Assembly (NCBI GenBank): GCA_026709625.1
Contig: JAPOSR010000039.1
Span: 45,649-109,648, forward strand
DNA length: 64,000 bases
From: Chloroflexota bacterium
GTDB lineage: Bacteria > Chloroflexota > Anaerolineae > Aggregatilineales > Phototrophicaceae
Direction: 5' to 3'
The translations under genes and the position numbers were made by a program. Positions 13,303 to 62,775 of this stretch are shown here, one piece after another. The notes below the pieces were generated by a model that was given only the letters and a program-made list of their open reading frames with translations, was not told the origin of the DNA and made no database searches. The stretch's first letter is position 1, and every line of letters starts with the position of its first letter.

Positions 13303-13845
13303 CTAATTCCCCTGGAAAGGCATGCCGAGCAACGCCAGCAAACGCCGCCCTTCCTCATCAGTCTTGGCGGTGGTCACGATAGAGATTTCCATCCCGCGCA
13401 CCTTGTCGATCTTGTCAAAGTCGATCTCTGGGAAGACCAGCTGCTCACGCAAGCCGACCGTGAAGTTGCCGCGGCCGTCCAGTTTCGCGGGTACGCCTCG
13501 AAAGTCGCGGATGCGCGGCAGCGCGATATTGACCAGCCGGTCATACAGCGCCCACATCCGTTCGCGGCGCAATGTAACCTTGGCACCGATCGCCCTGCCC
13601 TCGCGCAGCTTGTAAGTGGCGATACTCTTCTTGGCACGCGTCACCACCGGCTGCTGGCCCGTGATCGTCATCAGGTCTTGCACCGCGCCATCCAGCGAGC
13701 GCGGCTCGTCAATGGCTTCGCCAACGCCGATATTCAGCGTAATCTTGCTGATGGTCGGCACCTGCATGCGGTTGGTATAGCCGAACTCCTGCGTCAAGGT
13801 CGGCACGACCTCTTCAACATAGCGGGTGTACATGCGGTTTTCCAT
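13303..13845 (-). CDS. rplE: 50S ribosomal protein L5
   Basis: 180 residues. Contains [18 protein letters not shown], the [22 protein letters not shown] stretch and [40 protein letters not shown], all characteristic of L5, which binds 5S rRNA and the P-site tRNA elbow. It is 18 nt after rplX. Confidence 0.98.
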
Positions 13846-13863
13846 GGTATCGCCTCGCCCAGG

Positions 13864-14190
13864 TTACTCGATATCTCTGCCGCTTTTTTTGCTATAGCGC
13901 ACCTTCAAGCCAGCGCTGTTTATGCGATAGCCAACGCGCGTGCGCTCATCGCTGTGCGGGCAGACCAGCATCACATTCGACAAATGGAGCGGTGCCTCGA
14001 ATTCGATGATCTGGGCGGGGATCTGCTGCCCGCCGGGGCCGGGGCGCGCCTTTTGATGCCGCTTCAAAATGTTAACGCCATTGACAATGACGCGGTTCTT
14101 CTTCACCAAAACACGGACGACTTCGCCGCGCAAGCCCTTGTCGCGTCCGGCGATCACCTCGACCGTGTCCCCTTGCTGCACTCGTTGCAT
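13864..14190 (-). CDS. rplX: 50S ribosomal protein L24
   Basis: 108 residues. The KOW motif is near the N-terminus (GDTVEVIAGRDKGLRGEVVRVL), followed by NGVNILKRHQKARPGPGGQ and a short C-terminal part. It is an early 50S assembly initiator. It lies 14 nt after rplN. Confidence 0.97.
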   Translation of the reverse strand: MQRVQQGDTVEVIAGRDKGLRGEVVRVLVKKNRVIVNGVNILKRHQKARPGPGGQQIPAQIIEFEAPLHLSNVMLVCPHSDERTRVGYRINSAGLKVRYSKKSGRDIE

Positions 14191-14204
14191 GTGGCTGTCC
14201 TTTG

Positions 14205-14576
14205 TTACAAAGTCTCGGGCGCAAGCGAGACGATCTTCATGAATCCCTTGTCGCGCAGCTCACGCGCCACCGGTCCAAATACTCGCGTCCCACGCGGGTT
14301 TTCCAGGTCTTCCGCTAGCACCACCGCGGCGTTGTCATCAAAGCGAATGGTCGAGCCATCGGCGCGGCGATATTCCTTGTGCGTGCGTACGATTACAGCG
14401 CGCACCAACTCGCCTTTTTTGACAGCGCCGCTGGTCGACGCCGATTTGACCGTCGCCACCACGATATCGCCGACATGGCCGTATTTGACTCGCGAGCCCC
14501 CCATGACGCGGATAACCAGGATCTCCTGCGCGCCACTATTGTCGGCGACTTTCATGCGCGATTCTGTCTGAATCAT
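14205..14576 (-). CDS. rplN: 50S ribosomal protein L14
   Basis: 123 residues, standard length. [47 protein letters not shown] and [26 protein letters not shown] are textbook L14. It is 41 nt downstream of rpsQ and opens the spc half of the cluster. Confidence 0.98.
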
Positions 14577-56696: not shown

Positions 56697-57179
56697 CTAT
56701 GCCCAGTCGGCGATGCGCTCGCCCTTGACTTTTTCGTGCAGAGTCAAGATGCCATGCAGCAACTGTTCGGGGCGTGGCGGGCAGCCGGCGATGTACACAT
56801 CGACCGGGATGATCTCGTCAACGCCCTGCACGATGGCATAGTTGTTATACACGCCGCCGCAAGAAGCGCAGTCGCCCATGGAGATAACCCACTTCGGCTC
56901 GGCCATCTGGTCATAGAGCTGGCGAATGACCGGCGCCATCTTGCGCGTCAGCCGCCCGGATACGATCAGCAAGTCAGCCTGGCGAGGCGTTGCGCGATTC
57001 AATTCCATGCCAAAACGCGACAGGTCATAGCTGGAGGCTTGTGAACTCATGTATTCGATGGCGCAGCAAGCCAGGCCAAAGAGCAGGGGCCACATCGCCC
57101 CCGTGCGCGCCCAGTTGACAGCTTGCTCGACGGTGGTGGTGACGACGCCGAGATTGCCCAGCTTTTCGCTTACTCCCAT
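56697..57179 (-). CDS. nuoB: NADH-quinone oxidoreductase subunit B
   Basis: 160 residues from ATG 57177-57179 ([19 protein letters not shown]); an ATG 7 codons upstream is possible. [24 protein letters not shown] and [12 protein letters not shown] hold the cysteines of terminal cluster N2, the donor to quinone. It overlaps the end of nuoA by 10 nt. Confidence 0.97.
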
Positions 57180-57529
57180 TCCAAGCCGCCTTTCTTCCAT
57201 TCATACACGAAGCCGACGATCAATATCAGCGTGAAGACAGCCATGACAGCCAGCCCATAGACGCCCAGGTCGCGCATGGACACCGCCCAAGGCAAGAAGA
57301 AAATCACTTCAATATCAAAGATGATGAACAAGACCGCGACCAGATAAAACTTGATTGGCAGGCGGCGCGTGGCGGGGCCAATCGGCTTCATGCCGCTTTC
57401 GTAGGGCACTGCCTTGCGGTAGGTCGGGCGCTGCGGGCCCATCACCCGCGAGATGTTGGCGATAATCAGCGCCAAGCCGACTGAGATGATTAGCAGGGCG
57501 CTAACAGGTCCGAATTCAAGGATGGTCAT
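57170..57529 (-). CDS. nuoA: NADH-quinone oxidoreductase subunit A
   Basis: 119 residues, three membrane helices. [45 protein letters not shown] contains the conserved quinone-site loop and the membrane Asp/Glu pair. It is the first gene of the operon. Confidence 0.97.
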
Positions 57530-57679: not shown

Positions 57680-57708
57680 TTGACACATTATGTATAGAGA
57701 TTTATACT
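57680..57708 (+). promoter_or_regulatory. Near-consensus sigma70 promoter of the HARE-HTH/GHKL island
   Basis: TTGACA, exactly 17 nt, TATACT, with the predicted start near 57,715, about 30 nt before the first ATG. It is among the strongest promoter matches in the window. The surrounding bases (57,655-57,720) are much more AT-rich than the flanks. Confidence 0.8.
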
Positions 57709-57746
57709 GCGTGTATCGAACTACATTGGACGGCGGGGACTGGTAG

Positions 57747-58223
57747 ATGAACAGCAGCGAAGACAATACGGCGGACTTGCTGCGACAATCGCTAATCGGC
57801 GAGCGCGACAGGTTGCAGCCAGAAATAGAGCAATTGCGCCAAGAGCTTGCCAGCAAGGGACAGCGTCTTCAGCATGTGCTGGCTCTGCTTTCCAACGAGC
57901 CTATCGCCGGCGAAGGCCCACCGAGACGCGCCCGACCACGTTCTGGCGCTACGCCAACCGCGCAGCTTCTCGACATGGCAGAAGCGATTCTGCGCGAGCG
58001 AGAAAGCGAACCAATGCATTATCGCGATCTTACCGATGAAATCAGGCGGCGCGGCAGGGTCATCGGCGGCAAGGACCCGGCCGCTTCGTTGGTGTCGCGG
58101 ATGACGCAGGATAAGGCGCAACGCTTTATCCGCCCGACCAGCAAAGGCTTCTATGCGCTGCGGGAGGATTATCCCAATGCGCGGAATGTGGGCGCTCGGC
58201 AGCGCAGAAACGCAAGCGATTAA
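57747..58223 (+). CDS. HARE-type winged-helix protein with N-terminal coiled coil
   Basis: 158 residues. Residues 10-45 (RQSLIGERDRLQPEIEQLRQELASKGQRLQHVLALL) form a coiled coil. A basic Pro/Arg linker follows. Residues ~72-138 (AQLLDMAEAILRERESEPMHYRDLTDEIRRRGRVIGG, then DPAASLVSRMTQ and a final FIRPTSKGFYAL strand) fit the HARE-HTH winged helix found in RNA polymerase delta, restriction and chromatin proteins. It probably binds DNA or a partner for the ATPase encoded 41 nt downstream. Confidence 0.8.
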   Translation: MNSSEDNTADLLRQSLIGERDRLQPEIEQLRQELASKGQRLQHVLALLSNEPIAGEGPPRRARPRSGATPTAQLLDMAEAILRERESEPMHYRDLTDEIRRRGRVIGGKDPAASLVSRMTQDKAQRFIRPTSKGFYALREDYPNARNVGARQRRNASD

Positions 58224-58264
58224 AAAACCATTAATGCAAGGAAAAGACGAAAAGGAAAAGCGAC

Positions 58265-60817
58265 ATGCAATTCACAAATACGTCGACAAATATGGTGCAA
58301 GCAATAAGCAATATCATTAATGGCTACAAAATGGGCGCAATGCGGGCTTTGGCGCAAGAGCCGGTACAAAATGCCTTGGATGCAAAGCGCAAAGGCACTC
58401 CGAAGGTGGTGGTGGAATACCGCTTACTGTGGCGAAGCATGGCTACTGGCGAACCGTGTTATATGCTCACAGTAACTGATTCTGGCACAGTTGGTTTGCG
58501 CGGCGATATGGTGACCACAGAAGAACTGGAAAGACGAGATCACAAACTCTTGCCAGAAGAAAATTGGGCAGCATTTGAAGCGCAAGGCTATACCAAAGAA
58601 AGTGAAGATGCGCTTGGCTCGCGAGGGCAAGGCAAAGCCGCCTTTCTGTATCATTCGCATGTCCCTGGCCCCACGCGCCGTATGCTGATGCTCTATGACA
58701 CTTTGCTGGAAAGCGACGAGTACAGGCTGGGCATGCGCTTTGCTCGTCCAGTTGACCAAACCATGGATCCGCCTTTGGTTGATGAAAAGGCGCGAGCAAT
58801 GGTCCGCAGCGACCTGTTCCGGGTGAATGACGAATTGGCTATTCCGCTCAAATTAAAACCTTTACGCAAGATCGGCACACGCATCATTGTACCGTTTCTT
58901 GACGAAGCCGATGTACGCGAAACTAAGCCCTACGGCGAATTATCTCGCTGGCTGCAGCGCTGCTGGTGGCGTGCTATCCAACTTGACAAGTTGGAAATCC
59001 GCATTGTCGATGATACGACTGGTCAAACCGAAGTGATCGCCGTGCCAGCCTGGTGGCGGGATTTGCCGCGCATCAAGGGCAAGCCTTCAACAGATGGCAG
59101 CTGGTGCGACTTGCCCGACGGCGGCCGCTCATGCGTTTGGGGCAACTTGCCGTTGGAAGATGGGCACAAAGTCCGCCGTTTGGTTCTGCTGCATAGCGAT
59201 GCCATCCTTGAAGACGAAATCTCAAAGGAGCCGGAATGGTCTGGTATTCAACTGCTGCGTCACTCACAGTGGATTGAGACCTACGGTGCCAGAGAAGAGT
59301 ATGGGGATTTGATCCCGGCTGAGAAACGCGCCGGCTTCCGCGGCTATGTTGAATTTGCGAAACATACCGAAAGTGCGCTGAGACATCATGAAGTGGAAAA
59401 CTCGCAGCACGATCGCTTCAATCGCCGGAAGAAGATCATTAGCGATATTCGCAATTTGCTAACAGAAAGAGTGCGCGACTTCAGCCATGAAATGGGCTGG
59501 AAGGAAGCTGTCTCAACTTCACAGCAAACGGCCTCTCAGCGCGACAAAGACACCTATATGCGATTTTTGAAGACTTTTCTGAATCCAAATGGGCGCAAAC
59601 CCAAGCCTGGGCAAGGCAAAGGTGAGCCAGATGGCAAACAGTTAATCTGGGATCTTCGCCTCGACCTGGGTTATCCCGACCCGAAAAGCGCGCGCGTCGA
59701 TTGGGGGCAAGCGATCCGAAATGTGTATGTAGAGGTGAGCGTAGAACCAGGCGAAGAGTTGATTGGCAGCGCCGACTTGGTATTGGAATGGGTGGATGCC
59801 ACCGGCGAGTCGACAAACATAATCAGAAAAGAAGCCACCATAGGCAACAGTTGGGGCGAAGACAGCATACAAGCGCAGTTTCAACTTGGGGACTGGCAAA
59901 TCCATCGCGGTCACGCCGAACGTGAGAGAGTAATCAATTGCCCAAACCCGGGCGAGTATCGACTGCGGGCAGCAGTCGAATATCATGGTGAGCGAGTGAA
60001 AAGCGCAGCGCGGACTATCTATGTGCAAACCAAGCCACCGCTTCCGCCAGAGAAGAATCCGATCACTTTGTCTATCAGCGCCGTGAATGCCGACGATGGA
60101 GAGAAGCGGCGCATTGACCATGGCGAGGTCTTGCATATTGAATTCAAGTCGCGTAATCGGATGCCCGATACCGCTACAGTCTACTTGAACGCGACATTTT
60201 GCGATGAAGTATTCGCACGGGGAATGCCGGTCGATCTGGCTGGAACCCCAGCTGGCGACACCTCTACCCCGTATCCTATCTTAACTGTGAAGTGCCAACT
60301 ATTGGACCCGCTTCAGTCTGCGAACTTGCTAATCGCGGACACTTTAGTCCTGAAGATGCCTGAGTCGAGCGGCACCTTTCGTATCCGCGCCGATCTACTC
60401 GATGCGCAAGGAAACCGCATCGCAAACTCCAGCAAACCAGTCTACTTCCAGCGCGATCCTAGCCGTGCGAAGAACGAGCTGCCATTCGAAATTCGGCAAG
60501 AATCCCAACAAAAAGAAATGTGGAAGCTGAATCGAGATCTCACCGAATTAACCTATCCGGGTGACTATCCTCTGCGCAAAGAATTGCCAGATGTGCGACG
60601 GCAAAATCATCTGCTGCAAGGCAAGAATGCCTTCATCGCCGAAATCAGCGCAAACGGCTTGCTGGAATGGGCACTGCGACCGAAGCAGGAAAACGGGGAT
60701 GACAGCAACTATGACCAATTGCGCGATAGCATCGGCAACCCAGATGATCCCAAATGGGAACCTTATATTCGCCGGCTGGAAAAAACTGGGCAACGGAGCA
60801 ACAGAATCCGCGCTTGA
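58265..60817 (+). CDS. Large GHKL-family ATPase
   Basis: 850 residues as read. The N-terminal GHKL (gyrase/Hsp90/MutL/histidine kinase) nucleotide pocket is clear: N box EPVQNALDA (Glu32, Asn36, Asp39), G1 DSGTVG (Asp72) and G2 GSRGQGKAAF (118-127). A transducer-like region follows to ~400, with a charged linker (TSQQTASQRDKDTYMRFL, then KPKPGQGKGEPDGK). The last half is beta-rich, with repeated immunoglobulin-like strands (NVYVEVSVEPGEELIGSADL; EYRLRAAVEYHGERVKSAARTIYVQ; LHIEFKSRNRMPDTATVYL). It has no kinase, topoisomerase or MutL endonuclease motif. The C-terminus as read is probably out of frame after 60,785. Base composition is lower in GC than the flanks. Confidence 0.88.
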   Translation: MQFTNTSTNMVQAISNIINGYKMGAMRALAQEPVQNALDAKRKGTPKVVVEYRLLWRSMATGEPCYMLTVTDSGTVGLRGDMVTTEELERRDHKLLPEENWAAFEAQGYTKESEDALGSRGQGKAAFLYHSHVPGPTRRMLMLYDTLLESDEYRLGMRFARPVDQTMDPPLVDEKARAMVRSDLFRVNDELAIPLKLKPLRKIGTRIIVPFLDEADVRETKPYGELSRWLQRCWWRAIQLDKLEIRIVDDTTGQTEVIAVPAWWRDLPRIKGKPSTDGSWCDLPDGGRSCVWGNLPLEDGHKVRRLVLLHSDAILEDEISKEPEWSGIQLLRHSQWIETYGAREEYGDLIPAEKRAGFRGYVEFAKHTESALRHHEVENSQHDRFNRRKKIISDIRNLLTERVRDFSHEMGWKEAVSTSQQTASQRDKDTYMRFLKTFLNPNGRKPKPGQGKGEPDGKQLIWDLRLDLGYPDPKSARVDWGQAIRNVYVEVSVEPGEELIGSADLVLEWVDATGESTNIIRKEATIGNSWGEDSIQAQFQLGDWQIHRGHAERERVINCPNPGEYRLRAAVEYHGERVKSAARTIYVQTKPPLPPEKNPITLSISAVNADDGEKRRIDHGEVLHIEFKSRNRMPDTATVYLNATFCDEVFARGMPVDLAGTPAGDTSTPYPILTVKCQLLDPLQSANLLIADTLVLKMPESSGTFRIRADLLDAQGNRIANSSKPVYFQRDPSRAKNELPFEIRQESQQKEMWKLNRDLTELTYPGDYPLRKELPDVRRQNHLLQGKNAFIAEISANGLLEWALRPKQENGDDSNYDQLRDSIGNPDDPKWEPYIRRLEKTGQRSNRIRA

Positions 60818-60884
60818 ATTCGCCCAGATTAGTCGTGAAACTGTCGCAATCATGCTCGAAATCTTCTCGCAGGAGAACCACTAA
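60780..60884 (+). other. Alternative C-terminus of the GHKL ATPase in the +1 frame
   Basis: Skipping one base of the A6 run (60780-60785) changes the ending TGQRSNRIRA into LGNGATESALEFAQISRETV and then AIMLEIFSQENH. That frame stops at TAA 60882-60884, overlapping the ATG of the next gene by one base (TAATG). The helical, protein-like tail and the tight junction suggest this is the true end. Confidence 0.7.
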
Positions 60885-61669
60885 TGCCCGTCCTCGTCTG
60901 GAGCGACCATGATGGCGCGCTTGGCAACAGCATTCGCACGGGCAGGCGAGTCTCGCTCAGCGCTGAAGAGTTTCGCCCCGAAGCCGAAGACCTCGACCGC
61001 GCGTTGGACGACCTGCTGGATATGGCTTGGCATGCGCTGACGGTCATCACGAAACGCGAGAAGGGCAAGCCGCGCTTTAATTCCTTCGAGCAAGCCTGGG
61101 CGCTGGGGCGCGCCGTCTTCGTCAGCGAGATTCTGCGCCATCCCGCCATGCAAGGCGAAGAGCGAGGCTTTCTGTGGCAGGCGCTGGCACCAAAAGCCTG
61201 GTATGGCATCCGCCACGATGCCTCGCGCGATTCCCGCTGGCGCGGCCTTATCCCGGCTCGAGCAAAAAAATGGCAAGCGAAGCCCAAAGATGCCACAGCG
61301 TACCGCTTCATGGAAATCGGCTATTGGCTGCGAGACCAACAATTACAAGACGCTGGCGAAGTCTTTGGATGGAAGTACAGCAATGCTTATGATCTCTATC
61401 ATTGCGCCTCACTGCGTTCCATTGAGCTGCGGCAAGTGGCGCTGGATTGGATCCGGTGGCAGAAACCTGTGGTGAAGGAGACATTCAACAAGGCAACCGG
61501 CTTTCGCATATTCCAGCAGGCCTTGCAAAAACGCTTCCCCGCTCGCGGTCCCGGCTCGGCGCTTTTGCCCCAACATTATCCGCCGGACGAATTGCGCGCC
61601 ATCGTCTTCGAGACGTTGGACGCCGCGCGTGATTTGCATTTCGCGCAAATCGCGGACGCAGCGCCCTAA
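60884..61669 (+). CDS. Third protein of the GHKL island, unknown family
   Basis: 261 residues, no signal or membrane segment. Mostly helical: AEDLDRALDDLLDMAWHALTVIT, then FNSFEQAWALGRAVFVSEIL, FLWQALAPKAWYGI, RFMEIGYWLRDQQ and a C-terminal PDELRAIVFETLDAARDLHFAQIAD. Tryptophan-rich. Conserved-looking polar positions include RHD (near 109) and HYPPDEL. I see no catalytic motif and no known domain. Its start is coupled to the +1-frame end of the ATPase, which argues that the two work together. Confidence 0.75.
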   Translation: MPVLVWSDHDGALGNSIRTGRRVSLSAEEFRPEAEDLDRALDDLLDMAWHALTVITKREKGKPRFNSFEQAWALGRAVFVSEILRHPAMQGEERGFLWQALAPKAWYGIRHDASRDSRWRGLIPARAKKWQAKPKDATAYRFMEIGYWLRDQQLQDAGEVFGWKYSNAYDLYHCASLRSIELRQVALDWIRWQKPVVKETFNKATGFRIFQQALQKRFPARGPGSALLPQHYPPDELRAIVFETLDAARDLHFAQIADAAP

Positions 61670-62775
61670 TCCAACGCGCCGCTGCCCGCCAGGTAGTCGG
61701 CCAGCTGCCGCGCCATCTCGCTGGTGCCGGCGTCGCTCTGGTGCACGCCATTAATCCAGTACTGCCGTTCGCTTGGCAAGTTGGCGGCCATATCATAAAA
61801 AAGCAGCGCTCGCTCAGCTGCCAGCTCGCGGATGATCGCATTGTGCTCGGCGACAGCGGCTTGACGGAAGGGCTGGCTCATCACATCGCCGTTGGGCGCG
61901 TCATAGACATACGGCGAATAGGCCCAGGTCAGCAGCAAGGTTGCGATGTCGCGGCTCTGCGCCATGCTGATGATGTTTTGCAAGTTGCGCTCGAAGTAGA
62001 TGGGCGGGTTGGCGTCCAAAACCTGCACTGCTGTCATGCCCAGGTTGGCGCAGACCGCTTCCGCCCCGCTTGTATCCAACTGGCATCCATGCGCAGCGGG
62101 CGGCGGCGGCATTCTCTCGTCTAGCGAAAAAGCCAGCTGCAGCGAATTGCCCAGCTTGTGCATAAGCAGGCGCTGCAAAGCGCTGGCTGGCAGATTCTGA
62201 TCAAGCGTTCGCCAGGTGCCGCGCAGCTCATAGCCGCCTCGATAGTGGGCGGGGTCGACCAGGCGCGCCCGCACATCGTTGGTCGCGTGATAAAGAATGA
62301 TCATGTCAGGGTCAAGGTCCTGCGCGCGCAGCATGAAGTTGACCGCCGACTCAAAGGTCGAATAGGCTGGCACGCCCGCATTGACCACTTCAATCTGGCT
62401 GTAGCCATAGTCATCAGCCAGCAGCCGCTCAAGTTTGTGAGGCCAGGTCAATTCATGCCTATCCAGATAACCGCCATACGTGGTGCTGCCGCCCAGCGCG
62501 ACGATGCGGTAGCGATCTGGCGGTTTGGGCTGGGTGATGTCTGGTCCGCGGTAGCCCAGCGAGTTGACATCGCCGCGGTTGGGAGTCAGACCATAATTGA
62601 CGAAGGGGATGGGGCGGTACAGCGACTGCAGCTCGTCGATCTCGGCGCGCGAAAAGAGATAGAGAAGCTGTTGCTGCCGCGTGCCAAAGTTGGCGACATA
62701 AAAGCGCCAGCCGGCTTCCAGCGCCAGCAGAGTCAGCACAATCGCGGCGGCTGACAAAGCGAGCTGCTTGCGCAC
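61666..62775 (-). CDS. Membrane-anchored SGNH/GDSL-like hydrolase
   Basis: 369 residues from a GTG start. Residues 5-22 are a signal anchor, so the enzyme faces outside. Block I is ALGGSTTYGGY with the nucleophile Ser, the Gly block is VVNAGVPAYSTFESAVNF and the Asn block is LYHATNDVRARL. The final block reads NGVHQSDAG, with Asn where the family usually has the catalytic Asp. An esterase or acyl-transfer role on an envelope polymer is plausible. It ends convergently over the unknown island gene (4-nt overlap). Confidence 0.85.
   Translation of the reverse strand: MRKQLALSAAAIVLTLLALEAGWRFYVANFGTRQQQLLYLFSRAEIDELQSLYRPIPFVNYGLTPNRGDVNSLGYRGPDITQPKPPDRYRIVALGGSTTYGGYLDRHELTWPHKLERLLADDYGYSQIEVVNAGVPAYSTFESAVNFMLRAQDLDPDMIILYHATNDVRARLVDPAHYRGGYELRGTWRTLDQNLPASALQRLLMHKLGNSLQLAFSLDERMPPPPAAHGCQLDTSGAEAVCANLGMTAVQVLDANPPIYFERNLQNIISMAQSRDIATLLLTWAYSPYVYDAPNGDVMSQPFRQAAVAEHNAIIRELAAERALLFYDMAANLPSERQYWINGVHQSDAGTSEMARQLADYLAGSGALD

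Follow-up and report, generated by a model that had tools for sequence, protein, structure and literature searches.

The three genes described here lie in a 64,000-nucleotide stretch of a Chloroflexota bacterium genome (GCA_026709625.1, contig JAPOSR010000039.1), referred to below as the window. They encode a small protein with a HARE-HTH winged helix (HARE), an ATPase of the GHKL type and a third protein, P3. HARE, P3 and the ATPase, which is MORC/Hsp90-like, form a genuine unit, and we put the three genes forward as a candidate DNA-surveillance system. As a preliminary description made from the letters alone had indicated, the genes share one strand and run opposite to both flanking genes (57170-57529 and 61666-62775, minus strand). 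The upstream neighbours read as NADH dehydrogenase subunits, and downstream the sequence reads as an SGNH-hydrolase-like gene followed by the rpoB end (names given by reading the sequence, not by family search). The features of the locus are as follows:

57680-57708, plus strand: sigma-70-like promoter TTGACA-17-TATACT, 11 of 12 consensus matches
57692-57707: inverted repeat GTATA-N6-TATAC overlapping the -10 box, read by eye directly from the sequence
57747-58223, plus strand: HARE protein gene, 158 residues
58265-60817, plus strand: GHKL ATPase gene, 850 residues
60786-60884, plus strand: conserved ATPase C-terminal tail in another frame, part of the open reading frame (ORF) 60561-60884
60884-61669, plus strand: P3 gene, 261 residues

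About 85,000 species genomes were scanned for patterns built on two seed peptides, which misses relatives without those peptides, and 19 ATPase loci were returned, all from genomes titled Chloroflexota or its subgroups save one, Candidatus Hopanoidivorans (Actinomycetota). HARE, ATPase and P3 were found in the same order and on the same strand at 18 of 20 loci, the window's own included. The exceptions were L018, where the contig ends before P3, and L015, which has no HARE gene (L- and G-numbers denote the loci and genomes compared). Among the 98 genomes of the window's family that were searched, ATPase was present in 15 and P3 in the identical 15, neither ever occurring without the other. The trio is conserved as a unit. 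HARE was found in 13 of these 15 genomes. The preliminary description had named homologues occurring singly in housekeeping contexts as a sign against its reading of the trio as a defence or DNA-surveillance system, and this was not observed; HARE alone was seen apart from ATPase and P3, in two genomes only, as a lone copy in G047 and at the end of a contig in G082. The G047 copy probably reflects partial loss, because it has two neighbours in common with the trio of L014 in G049, one of them a Vsr-like gene (the two genes are 89.7% and 84.6% identical, the Vsr-like gene first). The lone HARE gene (L121:5198-5782) lies near the Vsr-like endonuclease gene, where G049 has the full trio. In 400 genomes of the phylum, strong matches were obtained in the source genome and one other only, and four more were weak and partial. 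At L010, a DUF2130 gene (13423-14484) lies 27 bases 3' of P3 on the same strand and is a possible fourth gene there.

The HARE protein comprises a coiled-coil-like N-terminus (assigned by reading; coiled-coil matches were weak), a HARE-HTH winged helix at residues 75-130 and a basic C-terminal tail. The HARE-HTH domain (PF05066) exceeded the Pfam gathering score (33 versus 25.9 bits, E 8.3e-8), which bears out the original assignment. The near-consensus promoter reported upstream of it also held up. It is the top of three candidates within 4.5 kilobases (kb), where 2.6 are expected at a looser 9/12 cut-off, and when 150 bases upstream were compared across relatives (18 stretches, the window's included), 15 held a site with at least 10/12 matches, against 0.94 expected (none of 300 simulations got to 15; several HARE start codons in this survey were guessed). 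Inverted repeats over the -10 box were also observed upstream of HARE in L008 (for example AAACAGTATAATACTGTTT), L013, L003 and L010, the window's own repeat being shorter. Such repeats suggest autoregulation. The AT-rich stretch said to cover the trio was not borne out: the guanine-plus-cytosine (GC) content is 52.6% in the ATPase gene, 60.3% in HARE and 59.9% in P3, and since low GC is confined to the ATPase gene, the whole set is not marked as foreign.

The ATPase, present as a single copy in the source genome, consists of a GHKL and S5 head (residues ~1-410), a low-confidence linker (~411-460), Ig/FN3-like sandwiches (~460-730) and a helical C-terminus. In the predicted structure the head takes the form of a MORC/SMCHD1/Hsp90-type GHKL-S5 module, with a Bergerat fold followed by an S5/transducer domain, the arrangement expected of the GHKL superfamily. 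The N, G1 and G2 boxes, described earlier as intact, are kept together with the fourth GHKL motif in 30-31 of the 31 aligned family rows at each residue examined, the exception being T205 (24/31). Neither the ATPase nor P3 reached a Pfam or NCBIfam cut-off, and neither had a PHROGs match at E <= 1.

Close relatives of the ATPase are mostly 866-880 residues long and have a conserved C-terminal tail. The window ATPase departs from the family frame at about 60786, where six A stand in a row, and its stop is at 60817, the last ~10 residues being outside the family frame; the stop of the frame-shifted tail overlaps the P3 ATG by one base. The 850-residue protein is recorded as one sequence on three contigs, and the frame break may be a sequencing error or a real mutation. 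Of 19 near-full-length ATPase copies six are interrupted (window, L003, L006, L016, L017 and L019), with L018, cut by a contig end, set aside, and no internal stop was found in HARE or P3 of the loci compared. As the ATPase is the longest gene, the restriction of interruptions to it is at most suggestive, and assembly error is possible.

P3 had been described as a helical protein of no recognised family. We found 113 relatives by sequence search and 172 by profile, and there was no Pfam domain among those listed (the best 120 of the 172 by profile). The structure model is confident (pLDDT 90.7, pTM 0.86) and mainly helical, in keeping with that description except at the N-terminus, which begins with two strands. 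No convincing fold match was obtained in any structure library searched, and no relatives were detected outside P3's own family. P3 adds a protein family whose fold is confidently predicted and so far unmatched. Thirty columns are invariant among 26 sequences, including R31, E35, D38, D42, D46, R76, K104, P219, G222, G224 and H231; R183 is likewise invariant.

The charged residues and the histidine in this set would suit a restriction-like system, in which HARE reads modified DNA and P3, with a fold not yet recognised, acts as a nuclease (or as an RNase or toxin) that the ATPase loads under ATP control, in the manner of paraMORC or GHKL-Shedu systems. According to PMC2292703, prokaryotic MORCs and paraMORCs are mostly placed with helicases and nucleases, and PMC12137116 proposes that a GHKL head controls the VcSduA nuclease. 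This ATPase-loaded nuclease, with P3 as the cutting part, is the strongest rival to the DNA-surveillance reading. We nevertheless hold it to be somewhat unlikely, as no nuclease family or fold was found for P3, no host-protecting methylase was recognised among the trio genes, and E35, D38, D42 and D46 are placed by the model at helical spacing along one long helix, as in a structural salt-bridge network.

The trio occupies one chromosomal site at which its presence has changed repeatedly. In genus g1 (34 genomes), 13 genomes carry ATPase and P3, whole or as a remnant, and one more carries HARE at a contig end. In 10 of the 13 a single contig spans the genes together with nuoA on one side and rpoB on the other; G083, G092 and G093 show one flank, and the remnant of G092 is followed on its far side by about 8 kb of other genes. 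The remaining 20 genomes are without any part of the trio, and their nuoA-rpoB site holds a gap of 269-417 bases (12 genomes), the SGNH-like gene alone (five) or other DNA of 0.8, 2.2 and 9.8 kb (three). Presence changes at least 10 times on an RpoB-end tree of 31 genomes, a count that is blind to gain versus loss (three genomes were left out because the sequence was missing; remnants and G082 were scored as present). The only directly shown loss is in G079, the sister of the HARE-bearing G082, where a deletion scar joins the first SGNH-like codons to 46 bases of the P3 3' end (the 46 bases are 83% identical to G064, and 22 bases are 95% identical to G062). Remnants consist of a C-terminal ATPase piece with P3 in G094 and of ATPase pieces with P3 in G092.

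Other variation was observed around this site. In two trio-free genomes the nuoA-rpoB gap holds a 559-residue ORF (L068, G067) or ~9.8 kb of other genes (L078, G063). The SGNH-like gene (window 61666-62775) is itself accessory: at this site it may accompany the trio, stand there in its absence or be reduced to 24 codons. The RpoB-like ORFs of L002, L003, L004 and L005 are longer (1564-1647 residues; L002:14600-19480) than those of the others (1315-1349 residues) and align as two pieces with ~200-300 residues between them, near residue 550, possibly an intein or a lineage insert.

The place between nuoA and rpoB, fixed in the genus, would be expected of a host chromosome organiser or regulator, whether a set of nucleoid proteins or of transcription factors, with the adjacent nuo and rpoB genes or the genome at large as its target, and HARE has a weak match to the NCBIfam RNA polymerase delta model (18.4 bits, cut-off 42). 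The 20 genomes without any part, 12 of them with a bare gap, the unrelated genes beside the trio in other lineages, and its loss and fast divergence make such a role quite improbable.

Pairwise identities indicate that the trio proteins diverge faster than both flanks. Across the 11 trio-bearing g1 genomes the median identity (best matching piece per gene) was 68.7% for HARE, 63.4% for ATPase and 68.9% for P3 (55 pairs each), versus 92.4% for NuoA and 84.3% for the RpoB end (45 pairs each). P3 similarity does not track that of the host (rho 0.09), HARE (0.51) and ATPase (0.40) track it in part, and P3 and ATPase identities were uncorrelated with each other (rho -0.07, n=55; 0.24, n=45 without G080). 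Among 19 rows, the nearest relative of the window ATPase is that of L002, while that of the window P3 is in L007. The ATPase of G080 (L020) is just 31-35% identical to the others, its HARE and P3 being ordinary. Tree tests rejected a position of this ATPase inside the genus clade (p 0.009) and of this P3 outside it (p 7e-5), although these are quick trees with a long ATPase branch, and the HARE tree decides nothing. Over 176 residues, the remnant in G092 shares 64% identity with the second type of ATPase seen in G080. Judged by these comparisons, the ATPase of G080 has been swapped for a divergent type and the unit internally reassorted. Since it is the gene that was exchanged as a whole in G080, some of the specificity may reside in the ATPase.

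Whether the trio sits in defence islands had been raised as a check, and the outcome was unfavourable: the g1 site lies between two housekeeping genes, and defence-like neighbours elsewhere are at best weakly enriched. At eight non-syntenic loci, 59 of ~92 listed ORFs were scanned with PADLOC models (E <= 1e-10), and at least six matched. The matches were two methylases and a mad2-like gene at L010, an AbiLi-like gene and PDC-M32A at L015, the latter ~580 bases from the ATPase, and Vsr at L014 (placed by sequence). Methylase models matched two of the 59, both at L010. Pfam placed no family on eight of 20 neighbours, and most of the others are metabolic or housekeeping. One of 52 control ORFs (window 1-56700) matched the PADLOC mads_3 model at 1.1e-32.

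Patchiness, gene loss, a strong promoter, -10-box palindromes in some loci and the interrupted ATPase frames could also be explained by a selfish or addictive cassette, similar to a toxin-antitoxin pair, that persists without defending the cell. There was no toxin or antitoxin family match, and the plasmid and phage searches found no copy; since the G092 and G094 remnants keep P3 uninterrupted, there is no obvious sign that it is lethal by itself. We regard this explanation as highly improbable.

The reading that we favour, and consider quite possible if still short of probable, is that the trio is a cassette, present or absent by species at one site, that serves as a DNA-surveillance (anti-phage or anti-mobile-element) system, with HARE marking the target and the MORC-like ATPase clamping it. 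Patchiness, the loss scar and remnants, fast divergence and a swapped part are, as seen in these sequences, signs of conflict-gene evolution. On these signs the earlier inference of a defence or DNA-surveillance role gained ground, whereas on its genomic setting it lost some. Several results weigh against such a role. The g1 site is flanked by housekeeping genes; PADLOC matches in neighbours differ weakly from those in control ORFs of the window (at most three of 52, of 54 listed); the window ATPase had no match when 50,697 records of phages and 72,556 of plasmids were searched, and none of 38 pattern matches in viral contigs was confirmed; one locus, L015, lacks HARE, and no HARE gene was found elsewhere in its genome; the ATPase tracks the host fairly well without G080 (rho 0.65); the lack of correlation between P3 and ATPase identities does not speak for partners that co-evolve in a tight complex; and, with six of 19 ATPase frames interrupted, some copies may be inactive.

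In the proposed mechanism, HARE would recognise DNA or modified bases and mark the target, and would perhaps autoregulate the set; HARE-HTH domains have been proposed as modified-base readers (PMC11037411, PMC10853773). ATP binding would dimerise two MORC-like heads and so close a clamp round DNA, with the Ig-like arms and helical tail holding DNA or partners. The target would then be silenced by DNA trapping or compaction, no nuclease having been recognised; both activities are reported for MORC2 (PMC12216690). P3 would be an adaptor or effector. A bolder version, which we think unlikely, is nuclease-free immunity in which a HARE reader loads a MORC/SMCHD1-type clamp, invading DNA is topologically trapped and compacted with the new-fold P3, and the whole is a counterpart of eukaryotic MORC transposon silencing. 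If true, it would place a MORC/SMCHD1-type DNA clamp in a compact bacterial setting, would mean that such ATPases can be immune-active without a nuclease, and would bear directly on the origin of eukaryotic MORC silencing. A single site at which the trio is present, has been lost or has had a part exchanged offers a clear natural experiment.

GHKL ATPases are known in defence. The combination of HARE, a GHKL ATPase and a partner of unmatched fold, with no recognised nuclease, was not found among the literature titles and abstract openings listed (preprints not covered), and the view that the trio matches no described system stands to that extent. HARE-HTH proteins such as RNA polymerase delta, HARE-restriction enzymes and ASXL have the domain in common with the trio's HARE, which differs in being a separate small basic-tailed protein, with neither a polymerase subunit nor any recognised nuclease fused to it. 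VcSduA, a Shedu protein with a GHKL head, offers a GHKL-type ATPase as the proposed control part of a phage-defence protein (PMC12137116); unlike it, the trio has no DUF4263/PD-(D/E)xK domain by Pfam or PADLOC match. Prokaryotic MORCs and paraMORCs, as described by Iyer et al. 2008 (PMC2292703), resemble the trio ATPase in their N-terminal GHKL domain with intact motifs followed by an S5 domain. The segment G-h-Q-h-h-R-x-x-Q-W-h is similar to the MORC S5 motif given there, but GhXhhpXXRhl itself is found in 0/31 rows, the R near its end being Q in 31/31. The restriction operons described there encode an SFII helicase, nuclease or methylase, none of which was recognised among the trio's three genes. 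Identity to the eukaryotic MORC4 and SMCHD1 is 13% and 10%, and neither a CW zinc finger nor an SMC hinge is among the Pfam matches of the 31 ATPase rows (Pfam only; the helical C-terminus was not folded separately).

The last comparison is with PDC-M33A, a GHKL protein that PADLOC lists as a candidate defence system; it is a candidate only, and the name was not found in the literature searched. Two proteins that match its model are 633-672 residues long, compared with ~870 for the trio ATPase, and have a different tail. No HARE gene was found at the two PDC-M33A-type loci read, and the neighbouring gene taken from these two loci encodes a protein of ~250 residues with no relation to P3 (hhalign probability 0.2%). 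The PDC-M33A model is matched, weakly, by 24 of the 31 ATPase rows (best 3.9e-6), and the GHKL and S5 head of the trio ATPase can be aligned with the two proteins over 372 columns (hhalign 95.5%). On this alignment, the head of the trio ATPase is distantly related to PDC-M33A.
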